In this document: positions 2,773-16,889 of the stretch, piece by piece
Layout: every line of letters begins with the position of its first letter
Position numbering within the stretch: the stretch's first letter is position 1
Assembly: GCF_005217605.1 (NCBI RefSeq)
Contig: NZ_SZPX01000004.1
Coordinates: forward strand, 124,001-188,000
DNA length: 64,000 bases
Reading direction: 5' to 3'
Source of the DNA: Sulfurimonas crateris
GTDB taxonomy: Bacteria; Campylobacterota; Campylobacteria; Campylobacterales; Sulfurimonadaceae
Made by a program: the position numbers and the translations under genes
The notes under the pieces: model-generated
The model's input: the letters and a program-made list of their open reading frames with translations, nothing else
Database searches by the model: none
Told to the model about the DNA's origin: nothing

Positions 2773-3600
2773 TTGAAAAATTTATATTTAATTGCATATC
2801 TAGATCTAAAAGAGTCTATAAGAGCCAAATGGTTTTTGGTCTACTCTCTTGTATTTGGAGGCTTAATTGCCCTCTTTTTTATAGCAGGAGTAACTGAATC
2901 TCAGGTAATGGGATTTAGCGGGCTCAGCAGACTTCTGCTTATGTATATCCAAATTACGATAGTTATACTTCCTATATTTATACTCATAACCACCGTTCGC
3001 TCCATCTCTGGCGACAGAGACAACCATATACTTGAGTATATGCTCTCGTTTCCTATTTCGCTAAGGCAGTATTACTGGGGTAAAATCATCGGAAGGTTTA
3101 TTACTGTATATCTTCCTGTTCTTTTTGCTATGATTATTGCTATAATTTTTGGTTTTATAAAAGGTGCGGCAATTCCGTGGAGTATCTTCTTTTTATATAC
3201 GGGGCTGCTCTTCTCGCTATCAAGCGCTTTTTTAGGTATAGCGTTTTTCATCTCTTCGTTTGTAAAATCATCTGAAGTTGCTCTTGGAATCTCATTCTTT
3301 GTCTGGATATTTCTACTCGCTTTTATAGATATAGCACTTATCTCGCTTATGATGCAGCAAAGGATGAATGAAGAACTTATCATATTTATCGCTATGATTA
3401 ACCCAATGGAACTCTTCAGGGTAGCCGCAATATCTCTTTTTGATCCCGAACTTACCGTTATGGGACCTGTTGCCTTTTATATACTTGACCTTATGAGTCA
3501 AAGCGTATTTGTTCTTGTCTCCATCGGCTATCCTCTTCTCTTGGGGCTGGCTTTTGCTTACGGCGGTTTTAAAATATTTGAAAAAAAAGATTTGGTTTAA
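2773..3600 (+). CDS. nosY: NosY, ABC-2 type permease of the nos cluster
   Basis: This 275-residue hydrophobic protein has about six membrane segments in the arrangement of ABC-2 permeases: an N-terminal cytoplasmic helix, a paired helix near residues 20-75, the stretch R-D-N-H-I-L-E-Y that contacts the ATPase, and a last helix near 245-265. It partners with NosF. Translation appears to start at TTG (2773), preceded by an AAGGA sequence, with no better ATG nearby. It lies between two nosL-like genes, with 9 bases to the first and 11 to the second. Confidence 0.88.
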   Translation: MKNLYLIAYLDLKESIRAKWFLVYSLVFGGLIALFFIAGVTESQVMGFSGLSRLLLMYIQITIVILPIFILITTVRSISGDRDNHILEYMLSFPISLRQYYWGKIIGRFITVYLPVLFAMIIAIIFGFIKGAAIPWSIFFLYTGLLFSLSSAFLGIAFFISSFVKSSEVALGISFFVWIFLLAFIDIALISLMMQQRMNEELIIFIAMINPMELFRVAAISLFDPELTVMGPVAFYILDLMSQSVFVLVSIGYPLLLGLAFAYGGFKIFEKKDLV

Positions 3601-3611
3601 AAGGAGTTTGT

Positions 3612-4109
3612 ATGTACAAAAAAATATTCGCATCACTGGTAATTGCTCTATCTCTCTTGCCTATTTCAAGCTTGAGCGCAAACGACTCTTACAAGATGGA
3701 TTTTGATAAAGAGAGTACATGTGTAGTAAGAAAGATGAAGGTGTATGAAGCACCCATGTGGGCTTGTAAAATAGAGCTAGCAAACAGCAAAAAACTTTTC
3801 TTTTCATCTCCCAAATCAATGATGGAGTTTTATCTACAACCAGGCAGATGGTTTGATATCGGTGTCAAAAGCGAGGAAGACTTCAAAGAAATTTTAGTTA
3901 CCGATTTTGACACTCTCAAACCCATAAACGCCAAAGGTGCTTTTTTTGTCTACGGAAGTAATGTTATTTCACCTGCAGGCGATGATTTGGTACCGTTTGC
4001 AACATATGAAGCAGCTAATAATTTTGCTTCTAAACACAACGGTAAAAGAGTATTTGCTTTCAACCAAATATCAGACGCTCTTATCAGACTGCTCAACGGA
4101 AGGCTCTAA
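3612..4109 (+). CDS. NosL-like periplasmic protein with incomplete CxxC motif
   Basis: The product is a 165-residue secreted protein with a clear signal peptide (cut near residue 23). The mature part aligns by eye with the second NosL domain of the protein at 13922-15010: both have a Trp-Ala segment followed by F/Y-F-S-x-x-x-K-x-M-M-x-[FY]-Y, and both end in a V-x-G-S-[DN]-V-x-[SG]-P-x-G-D-[DE]-L-[IV]-P-F-A segment. The metal motif is altered: C37-V-V-R-K-M42 instead of C-x-x-C-G-M, so the second Cys is Arg. A new Cys is present at 52. It follows nosY by 11 bases and is the last gene of the nos operon. It may still handle copper with different ligands, or be structural. Confidence 0.75.
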   Translation: MYKKIFASLVIALSLLPISSLSANDSYKMDFDKESTCVVRKMKVYEAPMWACKIELANSKKLFFSSPKSMMEFYLQPGRWFDIGVKSEEDFKEILVTDFDTLKPINAKGAFFVYGSNVISPAGDDLVPFATYEAANNFASKHNGKRVFAFNQISDALIRLLNGRL

Positions 4110-11789: not shown

Positions 11790-12458
11790 CTAAATTATGC
11801 TTCCGTGATGCAGCTCTATCTCTCTGTCTGCAAAATTTAGCCCAAAAAAGAGTGGGTCATGAGTTGCTACTACGATAGTTTTCCCCTCAGCTTTAAGCTC
11901 TTGGAGCATCTCTATAAAGTGAAGCGAGAGTTTCTCGTCCAGATTTGCCGTTGGCTCATCCGCCAAAATGATCTTTGGGTTGTTTATATTTGCTCTGGCA
12001 ATCGCCACTCTCTGCTGCTCTCCGCCTGAGAGATTTTTAACAAGCTGCTCACTCTTATGCTCAATATGAAACATCTTTAAAACTCTTTTTAGCTTCTCAT
12101 CTATCTCTTTTTTGCTAAGATTCATAGGAACAAGAGGCAAAAGAATATTCTCTTTTACGCTGAGATTTGGAATAAGATTGTACTTTTGAAAAACAAACCC
12201 TATGTTGTGGCGTCTATACTCGGAGGCAAAGTTATCCGCAAGTTTTGATATCTTGTCTCCGTCTACTTCAACCTCTCCGCTTGTGGGCTTGCTGAGTGCG
12301 GCAATTAGCGAGAGGACAGTACTCTTTCCGCTTCCGCTTGCACCTCTTAGCACTACAAGCTCTCCCTCTTTAATATCGAGATTTATCCCTTTTAGTGCTC
12401 TCAGGGTCTCTGCATCGTTTATCTTGTACTCTTTTATCACATCTTTTAGCTTTATCAC
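11790..12458 (-). CDS. LolD/MacB-type ABC transporter ATPase (nosL operon)
   Basis: The protein has 222 residues with Walker A GASGSGKST, a Q-loop in GFVFQKYNLIP, signature LSGGEQQRV, Walker B IILADEPTAN and switch His in VATHD. The Q-loop and signature are typical of the LolD/FtsE/MacB subfamily that works with FtsX-like permeases; such a permease is encoded directly upstream (12458-13633). The pair shares an operon with NosL proteins, so it may act in envelope traffic connected with copper centre assembly. It is distinct in sequence from NosF. Confidence 0.85.
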   Translation of the reverse strand: MIKLKDVIKEYKINDAETLRALKGINLDIKEGELVVLRGASGSGKSTVLSLIAALSKPTSGEVEVDGDKISKLADNFASEYRRHNIGFVFQKYNLIPNLSVKENILLPLVPMNLSKKEIDEKLKRVLKMFHIEHKSEQLVKNLSGGEQQRVAIARANINNPKIILADEPTANLDEKLSLHFIEMLQELKAEGKTIVVATHDPLFFGLNFADREIELHHGSII

Positions 12459-13633
12459 TATCTTATAACCTCATCAACTTCTAGTGTTGCGCTTCTGTAT
12501 GCAGGAACGATCGTAGCTGCAATATAAACAGGCACACTTAGAAAAAATATGAGCGCCATACTCTGCCAATCAAGAACAAACGGGAGAGTGAAAGATGTCT
12601 TTAACTGTGAGTAGCCTATAAATATATTTTGCATAAGAGGAGCCTTTAGAATATAAACAAAAAAGAGAGCCAAAATTATGCCTGTAATATATGAGAAAAA
12701 TGAGACGATAAACCCCTCATAAAATCTCTCTTTTAAGACATCATCAATCCTCCATCCAAGAGCTTTAAGTATCCCTATCTCTCTCTTCTCCTCACTGCTA
12801 AGTCCGCTTGCTTTATCATAAATGATTATAAAGAAAGTAAAGAGCGAGACAATAAAGAGTGCAAGAAAAACCCCGCTCTTGTAGTCAAAGATATTTTGAT
12901 AGCTGATCTTTAGATCGTCTTTTGTAATAACCCTTGCATCAGGGTAGAGAAGTTTTATCTTTGAAGCGATGGTCGCTATCTCGTTTGGGTTTGCGACCTT
13001 TGCCACTATATCAGTTGCTTTTGTCTCATCGATCCCGAAAATCTCTCTGATATTTTTTTTGCTCATAACTATTACGTCATTTGACTCAAGCTCGGTGTCG
13101 CCCTCAAATGAAGCACCTATATAGACTCTCTTCATGGTTCCCTCAGGCTTTATAAAATTGAAATACTCTTTATAGTAGCTCTTCTTCATAACCCTCTTGA
13201 CACCCTCGCCTAACATCATAACAGAGCTCTCAAAATCAAGCTTTTGTGAAATACTATTTAACGACTCTTTATACTGCTCTTCATACTCATCAATTCCTAC
13301 AAGTGTAAAGTTAACTCCCGCATTTTCAAAGTAGTAGTAGCCCCACACTCTTGCAACCGCGCTCTGAACACCGCTCATCTGCAAAATTTCGTCTACGACT
13401 TCAACTCCTATCTCATCCTGACGTCCCGCTTTGATCTTTTGAATAGTTATCTCGGGCAGAGAATCAACAGTAGAATTGAGCTCATGCTTTATAGAGTTTG
13501 TTATAAAAAAGAGCGAGCTTAGCAAAAAGACAAGAGCGCTTAAGATAAAGAATATAAAAAGTGTTTTATATCTCTGACGAAGCAGAGAGTTTATGGCATA
13601 CTCTGTTATATAGAGGTTGAATCTGCTTCTCAC
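12458..13633 (-). CDS. FtsX/MacB-type ABC permease (nosL operon)
   Basis: The product has 391 residues. One membrane helix near residues 25-45 is followed by a large periplasmic domain (about 50-255, MacB_PCD-like) and three C-terminal helices (about 260-280, 310-335 and 355-380). This is the mechanotransmission FtsX topology, which moves lipoproteins or peptides rather than ions. It pairs with the ATPase at 11790-12458, with start and stop overlapping by 1 base. The cargo is unknown. Two lipobox NosL proteins in the window make lipoprotein handling possible, but this is inference. Confidence 0.83.
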   Translation of the reverse strand: MRSRFNLYITEYAINSLLRQRYKTLFIFFILSALVFLLSSLFFITNSIKHELNSTVDSLPEITIQKIKAGRQDEIGVEVVDEILQMSGVQSAVARVWGYYYFENAGVNFTLVGIDEYEEQYKESLNSISQKLDFESSVMMLGEGVKRVMKKSYYKEYFNFIKPEGTMKRVYIGASFEGDTELESNDVIVMSKKNIREIFGIDETKATDIVAKVANPNEIATIASKIKLLYPDARVITKDDLKISYQNIFDYKSGVFLALFIVSLFTFFIIIYDKASGLSSEEKREIGILKALGWRIDDVLKERFYEGFIVSFFSYITGIILALFFVYILKAPLMQNIFIGYSQLKTSFTLPFVLDWQSMALIFFLSVPVYIAATIVPAYRSATLEVDEVIR

Positions 13634-13929
13634 TGCTTATCTCCTAAATAAGGAGCACTTCTGTAGGTATATGTTGATACAAAATACTCCCTAAGAGTCC
13701 CGTCATCCCTATAAGCCGAGAAAAAATCACTTAAACTTCTGTGTCTAATATATGAAGCCTCTGTTGAGATGCTAAGATCAGGAAGCTGTACGGTTTTTAC
13801 AAACTCTCTTTTGCTTCTTAGCGCTTCTTCATCCATGCTTTTTGCCCAAAAAAGATACCATATTTCCACAGACAAAATAGCACTTAAAACAAAAAATGAG
13901 TAGATAAAGAGTCTGCTTTTTCTATTCAT
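13630..13929 (-). CDS. Small single-helix membrane protein (nosL operon)
   Basis: This is a 99-residue protein with one N-terminal membrane helix (about residues 8-28) and a polar periplasmic tail of about 70 residues containing no Cys. I do not recognise it. It overlaps the permease gene by 4 bases and the double-NosL gene by 8 bases, so it is translated as part of the operon. It may be an accessory subunit of the FtsX-type transporter. Confidence 0.6.
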   Translation of the reverse strand: MNRKSRLFIYSFFVLSAILSVEIWYLFWAKSMDEEALRSKREFVKTVQLPDLSISTEASYIRHRSLSDFFSAYRDDGTLREYFVSTYTYRSAPYLGDKQ

Positions 13930-15010
13930 CTAGCTTCTTTATCTCCATCTCTGTTATTTCGTCAAATCTTAGTATCTTTGTGCCCTTATGATCCATATAG
14001 AAAGTTTTTGCCTCACTCTCTTTGGCAAAAGGTATAAGTTCATCTCCCATCGGACCGTAAACATCACTGCCTACTACATAGTAAGCCTCTTTAGAGTCTA
14101 TAGCTTTTTGAGAGTAGTAATCACTCACTAACATCTTAGAGATGTCATCTTTGTGCAAAAAGTAGTACTTCATCATATCTTTTACGCCGTCAAACGAGAA
14201 GTGTTTTTCACCGTAAAATATCTGAGCTGCCCATTTTGGATACTTATAGACGAACATACCACAGATCGGGCACTTCTCATCTTTACTTACCTCTATAACA
14301 TCGACTCCTTTTGTATCGCCGAATCTCTTTACTTCCCAAAGATAAAGCGATAAAGGCTGCAGTTCGCTATCTTTTAGATCAGAACAAAAACTCTTCTCCT
14401 TAAGTGCGGCTTTTAGCTCGTTTATCTCCAAGTATGCATTGATATCTATCTCTTTTTTACATCTCTTCTCAAATATCTTTTTGCCCATTGAGTAGATCTG
14501 CTTCTCTTTTTTATTTTGAACCATAGCTACATCTGATTGCAGTGAGTCCTGAGCCATCTTAAGAGCTGTTTTAAAATCAACTATCTCCCCGCCGTTCTCA
14601 ATACTGAACTCTTCTGCTACATCTTTATCTGCAAAGGCGAGTTTACTCACTTTTGTCATAGTCCCTCTAATATCAGAACCAACGACATAATAAGCAGTTG
14701 AAGCATCTATGAGTTTTTCATTTGAAGCATCGACGACCTTTATGTCATCGGCATCTATCTCATACTCCTGCATATCTACGGCAAGACATCTTATTGAGCA
14801 GTATTGTCTGTTTTTATGATCATGGATCTTTGAAGTGTGCGAAGTTTTATAGTAAGCCTCTATGCTCATTCCGCATACAGGGCACCACTCTTTTTGAGGG
14901 CCCTCTTGAACCAACATAGGCTTAGTCGATGCAGATTTTGTAAAACCGGCGGCATTTAAAGCTGTCGCACAGAAGATTAAACTAAAAAGAAGAACTATCT
15001 TTATAAACAT
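13922..15010 (-). CDS. Double-NosL-domain periplasmic protein
   Basis: The product has 362 residues with a signal peptide (cut near residue 21) and no lipobox. Two NosL modules are fused. The first has CPVCGM (C43, C46, M48) plus a Q-Y-C-S-I-R-C-L-A site near 70-77, and the second has CPICGM (C247, C250, M252). Each module ends in a Y-Y-V-V-G-S-D-[IV] segment. The linker (about 155-230) contains a predicted helical stretch with C184 and C209. Two Cu(I) sites in one chain would allow internal transfer or buffering. It is the first gene of the minus-strand operon 15010-9776 and lies downstream of the FNR-type box at 15231. Confidence 0.83.
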   Translation of the reverse strand: MFIKIVLLFSLIFCATALNAAGFTKSASTKPMLVQEGPQKEWCPVCGMSIEAYYKTSHTSKIHDHKNRQYCSIRCLAVDMQEYEIDADDIKVVDASNEKLIDASTAYYVVGSDIRGTMTKVSKLAFADKDVAEEFSIENGGEIVDFKTALKMAQDSLQSDVAMVQNKKEKQIYSMGKKIFEKRCKKEIDINAYLEINELKAALKEKSFCSDLKDSELQPLSLYLWEVKRFGDTKGVDVIEVSKDEKCPICGMFVYKYPKWAAQIFYGEKHFSFDGVKDMMKYYFLHKDDISKMLVSDYYSQKAIDSKEAYYVVGSDVYGPMGDELIPFAKESEAKTFYMDHKGTKILRFDEITEMEIKKLDE

Positions 15011-15308: not shown

Positions 15309-15788
15309 CTATTGCACTCTTAGAAGCAACAATCTTCTTATAAAAAGTATCAAAAGAGCAACGGCCAAGATTTTAAAATCCAATTCACTTGCCAAATGGA
15401 TGTTTTTAAAAGTGTCACTTCTAGTAGCTTCTTCGCCCAGTAACTGCATAGCCAGTATTTTTGGAGAGTAAACAGCACTAAACATAAGAGAGGAGAAGAC
15501 AACTGTAACCGCGCTTCCGAATATTATTGCATCTCTTTGACCTCTTTTATACATTAAAAGCTCATATACCGCAACAAAAAAGGCTAAAAAGTATACCCAG
15601 TAGCTAAAACGGCGGAAAACCTCGCCCATAATAATTCCGGCATTGTAGTTATCAAGCAAAACGGAGTATAAAATCTTGTCTGTATGAAAGACTATGGGAG
15701 CGACGATAGTGCCTAAAACTAAAACTGCTCCAAATGTAGCGGCCAAAAGTGTGAAGTATGTAAAATCTATAAAAATATTTCTTTTCAA
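15309..15788 (-). CDS. DUF4149-type four-helix membrane protein
   Basis: This 159-residue protein has four membrane segments (about 8-32, 58-76, 84-105 and 135-152), in the pattern of the DUF4149/TMEM205 family, whose role is unknown. Translation appears to start at TTG (15788-15786), preceded by AAGGA at suitable distance. That Shine-Dalgarno lies inside the outer arm of the 269-bp inverted-repeat element, so pairing of the arm would hide it. It lies downstream of prmC on the same strand. Confidence 0.65.
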   Translation of the reverse strand: MKRNIFIDFTYFTLLAATFGAVLVLGTIVAPIVFHTDKILYSVLLDNYNAGIIMGEVFRRFSYWVYFLAFFVAVYELLMYKRGQRDAIIFGSAVTVVFSSLMFSAVYSPKILAMQLLGEEATRSDTFKNIHLASELDFKILAVALLILFIRRLLLLRVQ

Positions 15789-15792
15789 TTAT

Positions 15793-16061
15793 TAAGTCCT
15801 TAATCATAAGAAACCCCAAATTTCAGCGATAAGTAAATAGCTCTAGTGCTAGACAGATTTTCGCAGGACTAGCTATGCTAATTCAAGAGAATCTAACGAC
15901 GCAATAGGGCTATTTACTTATCACCCGAAGGGAAGCTTAAAAAGAGGGCTACTGCTTCGTTAAAAGCACTTGAAGCTACTAGTAGCTCCTGCGCACTTTC
16001 GCCTCACACTAGCCCTCTTTTTAAGTTTCTGAAATTGGGGTTTCTTATGACTAAGGACTTA
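15793..16061 (-). repeat. Nested inverted-repeat element (multi-branched hairpin) between prmC and the DUF4149 gene
   Basis: The outer arms 15793-15826 and 16029-16061 pair over about 33 bp. Inside are two perfect hairpin stems: 15828-15841 with 15909-15922 (GATAAGTAAATAGC) and 15936-15950 with 16011-16025 (CTTAAAAAGAGGGCT). Junction linkers are very short (1 to 13 bases), giving a compact multi-way junction. The linker between the inner stems reads CCCTTCGGG on the minus strand, a possible UUCG-capped mini-hairpin. The only base mismatch in the outer stem (A opposite C on the plus strand) becomes a G-U wobble in minus-strand RNA. It begins at the prmC stop codon and ends at the Shine-Dalgarno of the next gene. 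It could be a MITE-like mobile element or a structured RNA leader. Confidence 0.8.
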
Positions 16062-16889
16062 TAACCTTAGTGTAAAACCCCTGTCAAAACCGCTGTAGTC
16101 TCTGTAGAACTCCAGTTTTGCAAAGTCTTTATCTTTTAAATATGCCGATATTTTATCTTTTTGGTCATAACCCATCTCACATGTAAAAAAGTTAATGTTT
16201 CTGCTTAAGACTTCATCAAGAAGTTCTTTGATTATTTCATCACCTATCTCTCCGCCAAAAAGAGCGTTCTGAGGTTCATAAGAGAGGTTTGATTCAAGCT
16301 GGGCATCTTGGGCTATGTATGGAGGATTTGAGACCAGATAATCAATATCTTCATCTACAGGTTCTAAAAGTGAACCGAGCCTGAGTTCAACTCTCTCTCC
16401 AACACCAAAAAGCTCTATATTTCTCTTTGCAATTCCAAGTGCCGCTTCTGAGATGTCTACCGCTATAATTCTTGCATTGGGAAGAAATTTTGCCAGCATG
16501 ATCGAGATGATCCCGCTTCCTACACCAACCTCTGCAACGGTAAGAGGAGCATTTTTATCCTCTATATTTTTAAGCACCTCATCTATAAGAAGCTCGGTCT
16601 CTGGGCGGGGGATAAGCGCACCCTCCGCTATAAAAAACTCTTCGCTGTAAAAACTGACCCTATTGGTAATATACTCAAGCGGCTCGTTATTGGCTCTTCT
16701 TTTTGCCAGCTCCAAGAGTCTCTGTGCATCTTCTACTTCTGTTTCCTGATTTGTCAAAAGCCAGAGCTCGTCAACGCCCAGATGGTGCATTAACAGAAGC
16801 TGTGCCTCTCTGGAAGCTCTCTCTATGTGAGGGTTTAAAACGGAGGTAATATGCCTTAAAAGATCTTTGACTAGATATCGGCTTGACAT
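16059..16889 (-). CDS. prmC: PrmC/HemK, release-factor glutamine methyltransferase
   Basis: The protein has 276 residues. An N-terminal helical domain (about 1-75) precedes a Rossmann methyltransferase domain with SAM-binding E-V-G-V-G-S-G-I-I-S (about 118-128) and the diagnostic catalytic NPPY motif (S-N-P-P-Y-I-A). It methylates the glutamine of the GGQ motif in peptide-chain release factors. It overlaps the M48 peptidase gene upstream by 19 bases. Its TAA stop is the first base triplet of the inverted-repeat element. Confidence 0.92.
   Translation of the reverse strand: MSSRYLVKDLLRHITSVLNPHIERASREAQLLLMHHLGVDELWLLTNQETEVEDAQRLLELAKRRANNEPLEYITNRVSFYSEEFFIAEGALIPRPETELLIDEVLKNIEDKNAPLTVAEVGVGSGIISIMLAKFLPNARIIAVDISEAALGIAKRNIELFGVGERVELRLGSLLEPVDEDIDYLVSNPPYIAQDAQLESNLSYEPQNALFGGEIGDEIIKELLDEVLSRNINFFTCEMGYDQKDKISAYLKDKDFAKLEFYRDYSGFDRGFTLRL

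Follow-up and report, generated by a model that had tools for sequence, protein, structure and literature searches.

A folded, probably transposable element at the prmC/DUF4149 junction of Sulfurimonas crateris and its dispersed relatives with diverse ends

Results

The locus and its element

The window, i.e. the whole 64,000-nucleotide stretch of a Sulfurimonas crateris contig analysed here, carries on its minus strand prmC and, downstream of it, a gene for a DUF4149 protein. Between the two lies a nested palindrome of 269 bp (window 15793-16061), in which an outer stem encloses two hairpin arms of ~97 bp and a CCC-GAA-GGG centre (Table 1). The position, size and nested, multi-branched layout given for this element in a preliminary description of the sequence were all reproduced by palindrome search, and the linker CCCTTCGGG is present on the minus strand as described there. 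Downstream of the DUF4149 gene (11790-15010, minus strand) are encoded an ABC ATPase, a permease, a small protein and a protein with two CPxCGM motifs, which we take to be NosL-like.

Table 1. Coordinates of the element, its parts and the flanking genes in the window
Feature	Position	Strand	Basis
Entire element with its terminal TA dinucleotides (putative TA target-site duplication)	15793-16061		Palindrome; empty site in relatives
Left half of outer stem (left terminal inverted repeat), TAAGTCCTTAATCATAAGAAACCCCAAATTTCAGC	15793-15827		Palindrome search; alignment of copies
Right half of outer stem (right terminal inverted repeat)	16029-16061		Palindrome search; alignment of copies
Arm A (left arm), inverted homologue of arm B	15827-15923	-	Covariance model R1, E = 5.7e-10
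Arm A core, conserved unpaired bases AGACAGATT...AATCTAACGACG	15850-15903 (limits approximate)		Invariant columns of alignment A1
Central CCC-GAA-GGG mini-hairpin	15924-15932		Sequence; recurs with other loops in most representatives printed
Arm B (right arm)	15933-16028	+	Covariance model R1, E = 5.7e-18
Arm B core CTGCTTCGTTAAAA...CTTGAAGCTACTAGTAGCTCCTGCG...TTTCGCCT, conserved part of the superfamily	15952-16004		Alignment A2 of 66 arms; identity figures
Arm B basal stem AAAAAGAGGGCT...AGCCCTCTTTTT, terminator-like on both strands (resemblance only)	15939-16022		Sequence; T-run counts
Downstream gene, DUF4149 protein (PF13664)	15309-15788	-	ORF call; profile match
Upstream gene, prmC; its TAA stop is the last 3 bp of the element	16059-16889	-	ORF call; TIGR03534, 219 bits
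AAGGA Shine-Dalgarno-like sequence from the element end, apparently serving the DUF4149 gene	15797-15801	-	8 nt ahead of the TTG start

The outer repeats, 93% complementary over 30 nt (15793-15822/16032-16061), are terminal inverted repeats such as a non-autonomous transposable element (MITE) has, and, again as in a MITE, there is no transposase gene, no open reading frame of 60 aa or more lying within 15793-16061. The outer stem pairs over ~34 bp; the A.C mismatch on the plus strand is the U.G pair previously described for the minus strand, to which a bulged A, overlooked in that description, is to be added. Likewise, the two inner stems described as perfect over 14-15 bp both exist, but are longer, i.e. 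22-23 nt at 91% complementarity (15828-15849/15901-15922 and 15932-15954/16007-16029). The z-scores of the fold are -12.6 (minus strand) and -13.3 (plus strand), with 0 of 200 shuffles equally good on either strand; the fold is thus far beyond chance, yet without strand specificity. The element as a whole is a quasi-palindrome, a feature absent from the preliminary description, with 69% identity to its own reverse complement. A covariance model (R1) made solely from right arms matches the left arm on the opposite strand (Table 1), so the two arms are inverted homologues.

Evidence for insertion

In the window 270 bp separate the prmC stop from the DUF4149 start, compared with -4 to 25 bp in 28 relatives. 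This comparison covers the 30 best-matching prmC loci, including the window, one relative of which (L053) gave no DUF4149 alignment; the site is thus empty in 28 of 29 relatives, and the empty sites, which come from other species, are compatible with a TA target. The element rebuilds the gene boundary, in that the TAA stop for prmC and the AAGGA Shine-Dalgarno for the DUF4149 gene, both visible in the sequence, now lie in its ends. That the Shine-Dalgarno lies in an arm of the element had been recognised from the outset, and this is general for that end type.

The element is single-copy in its own genome. Further copies, which the preliminary description proposed to look for, form a dispersed superfamily. 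Within the genus, DNA matches (E <= 0.01) occur in 73 of 135 genomes, five matches at E 0.002-0.007 being possibly due to chance, and covariance-model matches to the arms (E <= 1e-4) in at least 73 of 135; 66 genomes are shared by the two lists, which together comprise 80. One same-genus genome has at least 29 arm matches. In a sample of the phylum, at least 16 of 298 genomes match; they represent 8 of 58 genera and belong to five families, each of them in the order of the window. The covariance-model tallies are lower bounds, at most 31 (genus) or 14 (phylum) candidates having been scored per genome; one genome (G034) has an arm-bearing copy (L362), yet is in neither the DNA nor the covariance list. 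A pattern scan of a genome collection gave at least 120 stretches, and the 80 titles among the matches listed are from Campylobacterota, mostly Sulfurimonas.

From these searches 151 distinct full-length copies were collected, 137 of which measure 262-276 bp. Candidates cut by contig ends (28 in one collection and 35 in another) were excluded, as were 19 of 170 unique candidates without an outer stem or outside 255-300 bp. An outer stem plus two arms can be parsed in 142 of the 151 copies, the other nine being left out of the arm counts. The same layout is present in most copies inspected from other genera; a few single copies, e.g. L238, L183 and L327, are predicted by minimum energy to fold otherwise. 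A match in a viral collection (L239) has the core motif, but was rejected as a copy since the outer palindrome is absent.

A transposase partner

In 132 of 151 copies a TA occupies the same offset at either end, although, because the ends are palindromic and start with TA, this count is partly automatic. One genome (G018) has three copies of an IS of ~1.13 kb, the end of which is identical over 31 bp to that of a co-resident element (86% over 37 bp in another comparison); nothing in the interior of the element matches the IS at an E below 0.33. The transposase of this IS, in two frames, matches the IS630 family (NF033545, 154 bits; cut-off 100) and also DDE_3. Thus, for the AGTACCTATCCAA subfamily in this genome, an autonomous IS630 with the same ends is present. 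In a second genome (G017) one end of an IS630, TAAGTCCCCATCC...AACCCCAATTT, is close to that of the window element, and in a third (G029) the IS630 ends, as judged from a weak inverted repeat, resemble another element type. The IS boundaries used were those of L260, L266, L282 and L289, that of L266 being itself weak (score 28); guessed boundaries at other loci look like chance repeats and were set aside. In one IS630 copy (L240) the right end is tandemly duplicated as a 56-bp unit, with starts at 3071 and 3127.

DDE_3 (IS630) gives no match in the genome of the window, nor was an IS found with precisely the ends of the window element. Across the genus DDE_3 matches occur in only 20 of 135 genomes and are not associated with the elements, which are present in 11 of these 20 compared with 62 of the 115 others (p = 1). 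No autonomous partner was seen for AGGGCACC ends in 20 loci or for TAGACTTCTTGC ends in 10.

It was earlier suggested, as one of two alternatives, that the element is MITE-like. This is supported by the dispersed copies, by TA at the ends, by the empty sites of relatives and, in one genome, by an IS630-family IS that shares an end. The window element is very probably a MITE inserted at a TA of the tight prmC/DUF4149 junction. Its terminal inverted repeats would pair as the outer stem, and a transposase acting in trans would have moved it; for the window copy this mover is presumed, whereas for the sister subfamily an IS630-family IS is co-resident.

Exchange of ends around a conserved core

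Clustering of the 151 copies by their ends gave 33 groups, a crude division since 20 are singletons, some of which plainly resemble larger clusters. Within clusters the median identity is 80% for ends, 77% for the arm stem and 85% for the arm core. Between clusters it is 46% for ends (42% when shuffled) and 34% for the arm stem, but still 83% for the arm core. Ends and stems have thus been replaced while cores persist. What lies between the ends may be viewed as a conserved cargo of ~200 bp, in which two homologous hairpin arms, inverted relative to each other, flank a CCC/GGG centre. Since the cores are conserved while stems and ends are replaced yet remain paired, the folded hairpins themselves seem to be conserved. 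A hairpin of this type, as single-stranded DNA or as RNA, could be recognised by some factor, or folding may be needed for the spread of the element itself.

Covariation in stems and arms

Alignments were made of 41 copies out of the 52 closest to that of the window (A1) and of 66 of 74 selected arms (A2). In the 41 relatives of the window copy 97.4% of the consensus-structure cells are paired, and 60 of 96 pairs have double changes, compared with 23.1 in shuffles and 9-16 when partners are slid. The covariation in the stems, proposed as a check in the preliminary description, is thus massive. For the outer stem, however, such covariation can follow simply from both ends needing the same terminal repeat. 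Among copies less than 6% apart, double changes in the outer stem outnumber one-sided changes (43 compared with 18), as would follow either from a need for both ends to fit a single transposase or from correction of one end against the other. The arms differ in this regard. For copies less than 6% apart, changes in arm A are one-sided in 52 cases and double in 4, and in arm B one-sided in 15 and double in 9, whereas in the arms of diverged copies they are mainly double, a pattern that resembles selection for pairing.

These data bear on the proposal that we are dealing with an ordinary MITE whose interior is inert and whose stems covary owing to templated correction of palindromes at the DNA level, i.e. 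by template switching at replication. The outer-stem pattern in close copies is what such correction would give, wobbles lack a consistent strand signature (see below), and deletion derivatives retaining little beyond the outer stem exist. By contrast, the one-sided differences in the arms of close copies, giving way to double differences on divergence, are as selection predicts, and correction would erase the unpaired, non-complementary bases of the core, yet the same bases are kept across end clusters. On balance, inert palindromes maintained by correction seem rather unlikely.

DNA or RNA

A second proposal is that the element is a structured RNA leader, riboswitch-like or an attenuator, which controls the DUF4149 gene and is repeated only incidentally. 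If RNA were selected, G.T mismatches should exceed A.C mismatches in the transcribed direction; outer stems with more than 7 mismatches (more than 6 in the set of the first 115 copies) were omitted from these counts. In the outer stem of copies oriented by co-directional genes G.T exceeds A.C (27 to 13, p = 0.038 uncorrected), which leans to RNA. The other tests are flat or reversed: the G.T to A.C ratio is 35:29 for the outer stem of start-adjacent copies (p = 0.53), and 41:59 (p = 0.09) and 31:35 (p = 0.71) for the arm stems; in the first 115 copies, oriented by starts, it is 92:89 for the whole fold and 21:21 for the outer stem. When copies, which are non-independent, are oriented by the core, the trends are opposite, with 56 G.T and 89 A.C in outer stems (p = 0.008) and 144 and 85 in arm stems.

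The wobble results are inconsistent, so an RNA leader is not claimed, although RNA is compatible with them all the same. The location of the Shine-Dalgarno within the terminal stem and the strong orientation bias toward gene starts (see below) are as a leader would have them. On the other hand, the genes downstream of copies are mutually unrelated and the insertion is missing before the DUF4149 gene in 28 relatives, whereas a cis-regulatory riboswitch would have the same structure before orthologous or linked genes. Rfam models have no match at gathering thresholds anywhere in the window, and at four relatives' loci, with E up to 1, a tRNA is the sole match, with none in the elements. The earlier argument that the G-U pair and a UUCG-like linker favour a leader is not supported, given the lack of a consistent wobble strand signature, the equal folding of both strands and the unrelated downstream genes. 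We consider a leader dedicated to the DUF4149 gene very improbable.

Placement at gene starts

The AGTCC and AGTACC/AGTGCT end types read outward as, e.g., AAGGACTTA or GAGAGGTACTTA, and copies with such Shine-Dalgarno-bearing ends adjoin the start codons of varied housekeeping genes. Among the 50 copies of these groups (the AGTACC/AGTGCT group as counted also includes the AGTACCTATCCAA type), 24 have the ATG of a frame of at least 80 codons no more than 15 nt from the left end, and 4 no more than 15 nt from the right end; for all 151 copies a start lies within 10 nt of the left end in 31 and of the right end in 7. In the first 115 copies an ATG is within 10 nt of an end in 23, compared with 104 of 1601 non-coding TA sites in the same loci. 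As judged from their N-termini, the genes downstream of copies presumably include ileS-, aspS-, queA-, nadD-, murB- and selD-like genes; by a crude N-terminal test all 48 start-adjacent genes scored as distinct, though nadD-like genes occur three times.

The ends are nearly symmetric and the orientation bias is hence taken to come from the interior. At the 48 start-adjacent ends a T-run of at least 5 is present in the distal arm only in 33, the proximal arm only in 4, both arms in 2 and neither in 9; in 33 of the 37 informative cases the terminator-like arm thus points away from the gene. In copies with a single T-run arm, the T-free side faces gene starts in a ratio of 44:11 and the T-run side in one of 35:34 (Fisher p = 0.0008). 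T-run arm, end type and orientation are, however, confounded, because most T-run arms (60 of 84) are arm B of two end types. In the window element a terminator scanner reported a single terminator-like site, on the minus strand at the tip of arm B (15989-15972), with 0.4 expected; it admits loops of 3-8 only, so the basal stem of arm B could not be reported.

The orientation bias prompted a search for an internal promoter. No promoter signature is present in the direction of the gene, -10-like hexamers numbering 40 sense and 40 antisense, and a promoter scanner gave one promoter-like site where 0.8 are expected. The terminator-like arm would explain the tolerated orientation only if transcription started downstream of the arm.

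Discussion

Our best guess is that the core functions as a gene-boundary cassette. Copies may survive where they are tolerable as a boundary, supplying a stop codon, a terminator-like arm, a spacer arm and a new ribosome-binding site. This idea cannot hold for the whole superfamily, since neither arm has a T-run of 5 in 58 of the 142 copies that could be parsed. A wider proposal, put forward tentatively as a possibility, is that a single folded module of ~200 bp, with two inverted arms and a conserved core, moves about the order within the terminal repeats of transposons of many unrelated types and persists owing to recognition of the folded arm by some factor; the whole unit would then be a transplantable gene boundary (stop codon, terminator-like arm and ribosome-binding site), enabling it to land beside the start codons of essential genes.

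The hairpins of other enzymes also come to mind. A REPIN, the mobile unit associated with a RAYT transposase, comprises two hairpins in inverted orientation, and integron attC sites, the box motifs of which are GTTRRRY/RYYYAAC, conserve their structure while the stem sequence varies. On this reading the arms described here would be related to such hairpins, picked up by transposon ends, and two inverted hairpins per element are REPIN-like, as the keeping of structure while stems vary is attC-like. By contrast, the present arms of ~97 bp lie inside IS-type terminal repeats and the Y1 (RAYT) transposase PF01797 is not associated with them (41 of 73 carriers compared with 31 of 62 non-carriers, p = 0.49), with none in the genome of the window; complementary R boxes are absent from the A2 consensus, the core of which reads GTTRAAA with TTTYGCC, instead of RYYYAAC, on the opposite strand. 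The arms are, moreover, much longer than REPs, for which the part of the source available gives 20-40 bp (PMC3733652), and kinship with either system is most improbable.

MITEs with effects on expression, i.e. Correia, ERIC, RUP and BOX, are already known, and the present family belongs to that broad kind. Its distinctive features are a nearly constant length, inverted homologous arms and a core conserved across unrelated ends. RUP is a TA-inserting repeat linked to IS630; Correia and ERIC elements are shorter, with a simple TIR-core-TIR layout, and we know of no conserved pair of inverted homologous arms in either. RUP and BOX of Streptococcus pneumoniae are short intergenic repeats with predicted folds, as here; effects on expression are discussed for them and some genes have a stop codon that comes from BOX, cf. 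that of prmC in the window (PMC3049150). The number of boxB modules varies, whereas the length of the present family hardly does, and in the portion of that paper available one core with many unrelated terminal repeats, or Shine-Dalgarno ends, was not found described (PMC3049150).

Correia (NEMIS) elements of Neisseria and ERIC of Yersinia are likewise MITEs the insertion of which alters expression, Correia transcripts being processed by RNase III and ERIC acting via an RNase E site, according to the available part of the relevant paper (PMC10969869). The same source describes QMITE2 of Coxiella burnetii, which is similar in being a MITE with TIRs of 23-29 bp and a full-length transcript with a strong predicted fold, but has 7-9 bp direct repeats and a core of 113-145 bp (PMC10969869). 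A survey of REPs, as far as its text was available, includes Sulfurimonas gotlandica in a table of counted genomes (PMC12306157). We found no description of MITEs or repeats of this type in the literature on Sulfurimonas, Epsilonproteobacteria or Campylobacterota; subscription literature was outside the scope of the search, so one may be in print.

The insertion at prmC/DUF4149 is itself ordinary biology; it is the folded core with interchangeable ends and the placement bias at start codons that merit follow-up. MITEs are usually viewed as deletion remnants of IS elements in which the ends alone matter. In the present superfamily this view is reversed, since ends and stems are freely exchanged while the folded core and total length are kept across genera, raising the question of what recognises the core. 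The copies also provide a natural experiment, with dozens of insertions, at different genes and with biased orientation, in which compact bacterial operons tolerate an insertion at the ribosome-binding site.

Variant copies

Several copies have unusual arrangements. In L343 (G350) a second palindrome of ~50 bp interrupts arm A, a palindrome within a palindrome, such that the copy measures 319 bp. At L095 two copies in opposite orientation (G127:C6:855-1124 and 1404-1674) lie ~280 bp apart. One genome (G045) has 56 matches of TAGACTTCTTGCANAA, another end type, several pairs being ~265-270 bp apart and many near contig ends; this abundance suggests a recent burst. Palindromes of ~48-62 bp, with little beyond two terminal repeats back to back, occur at L250 (TIR at 4001, mate 37 bp away), L355 (1501-1548), L368 (1962-2020), L374 and L375 (501-559 in both) and G072:C76:3522-3576; these are deletion derivatives or cargo-free forms.
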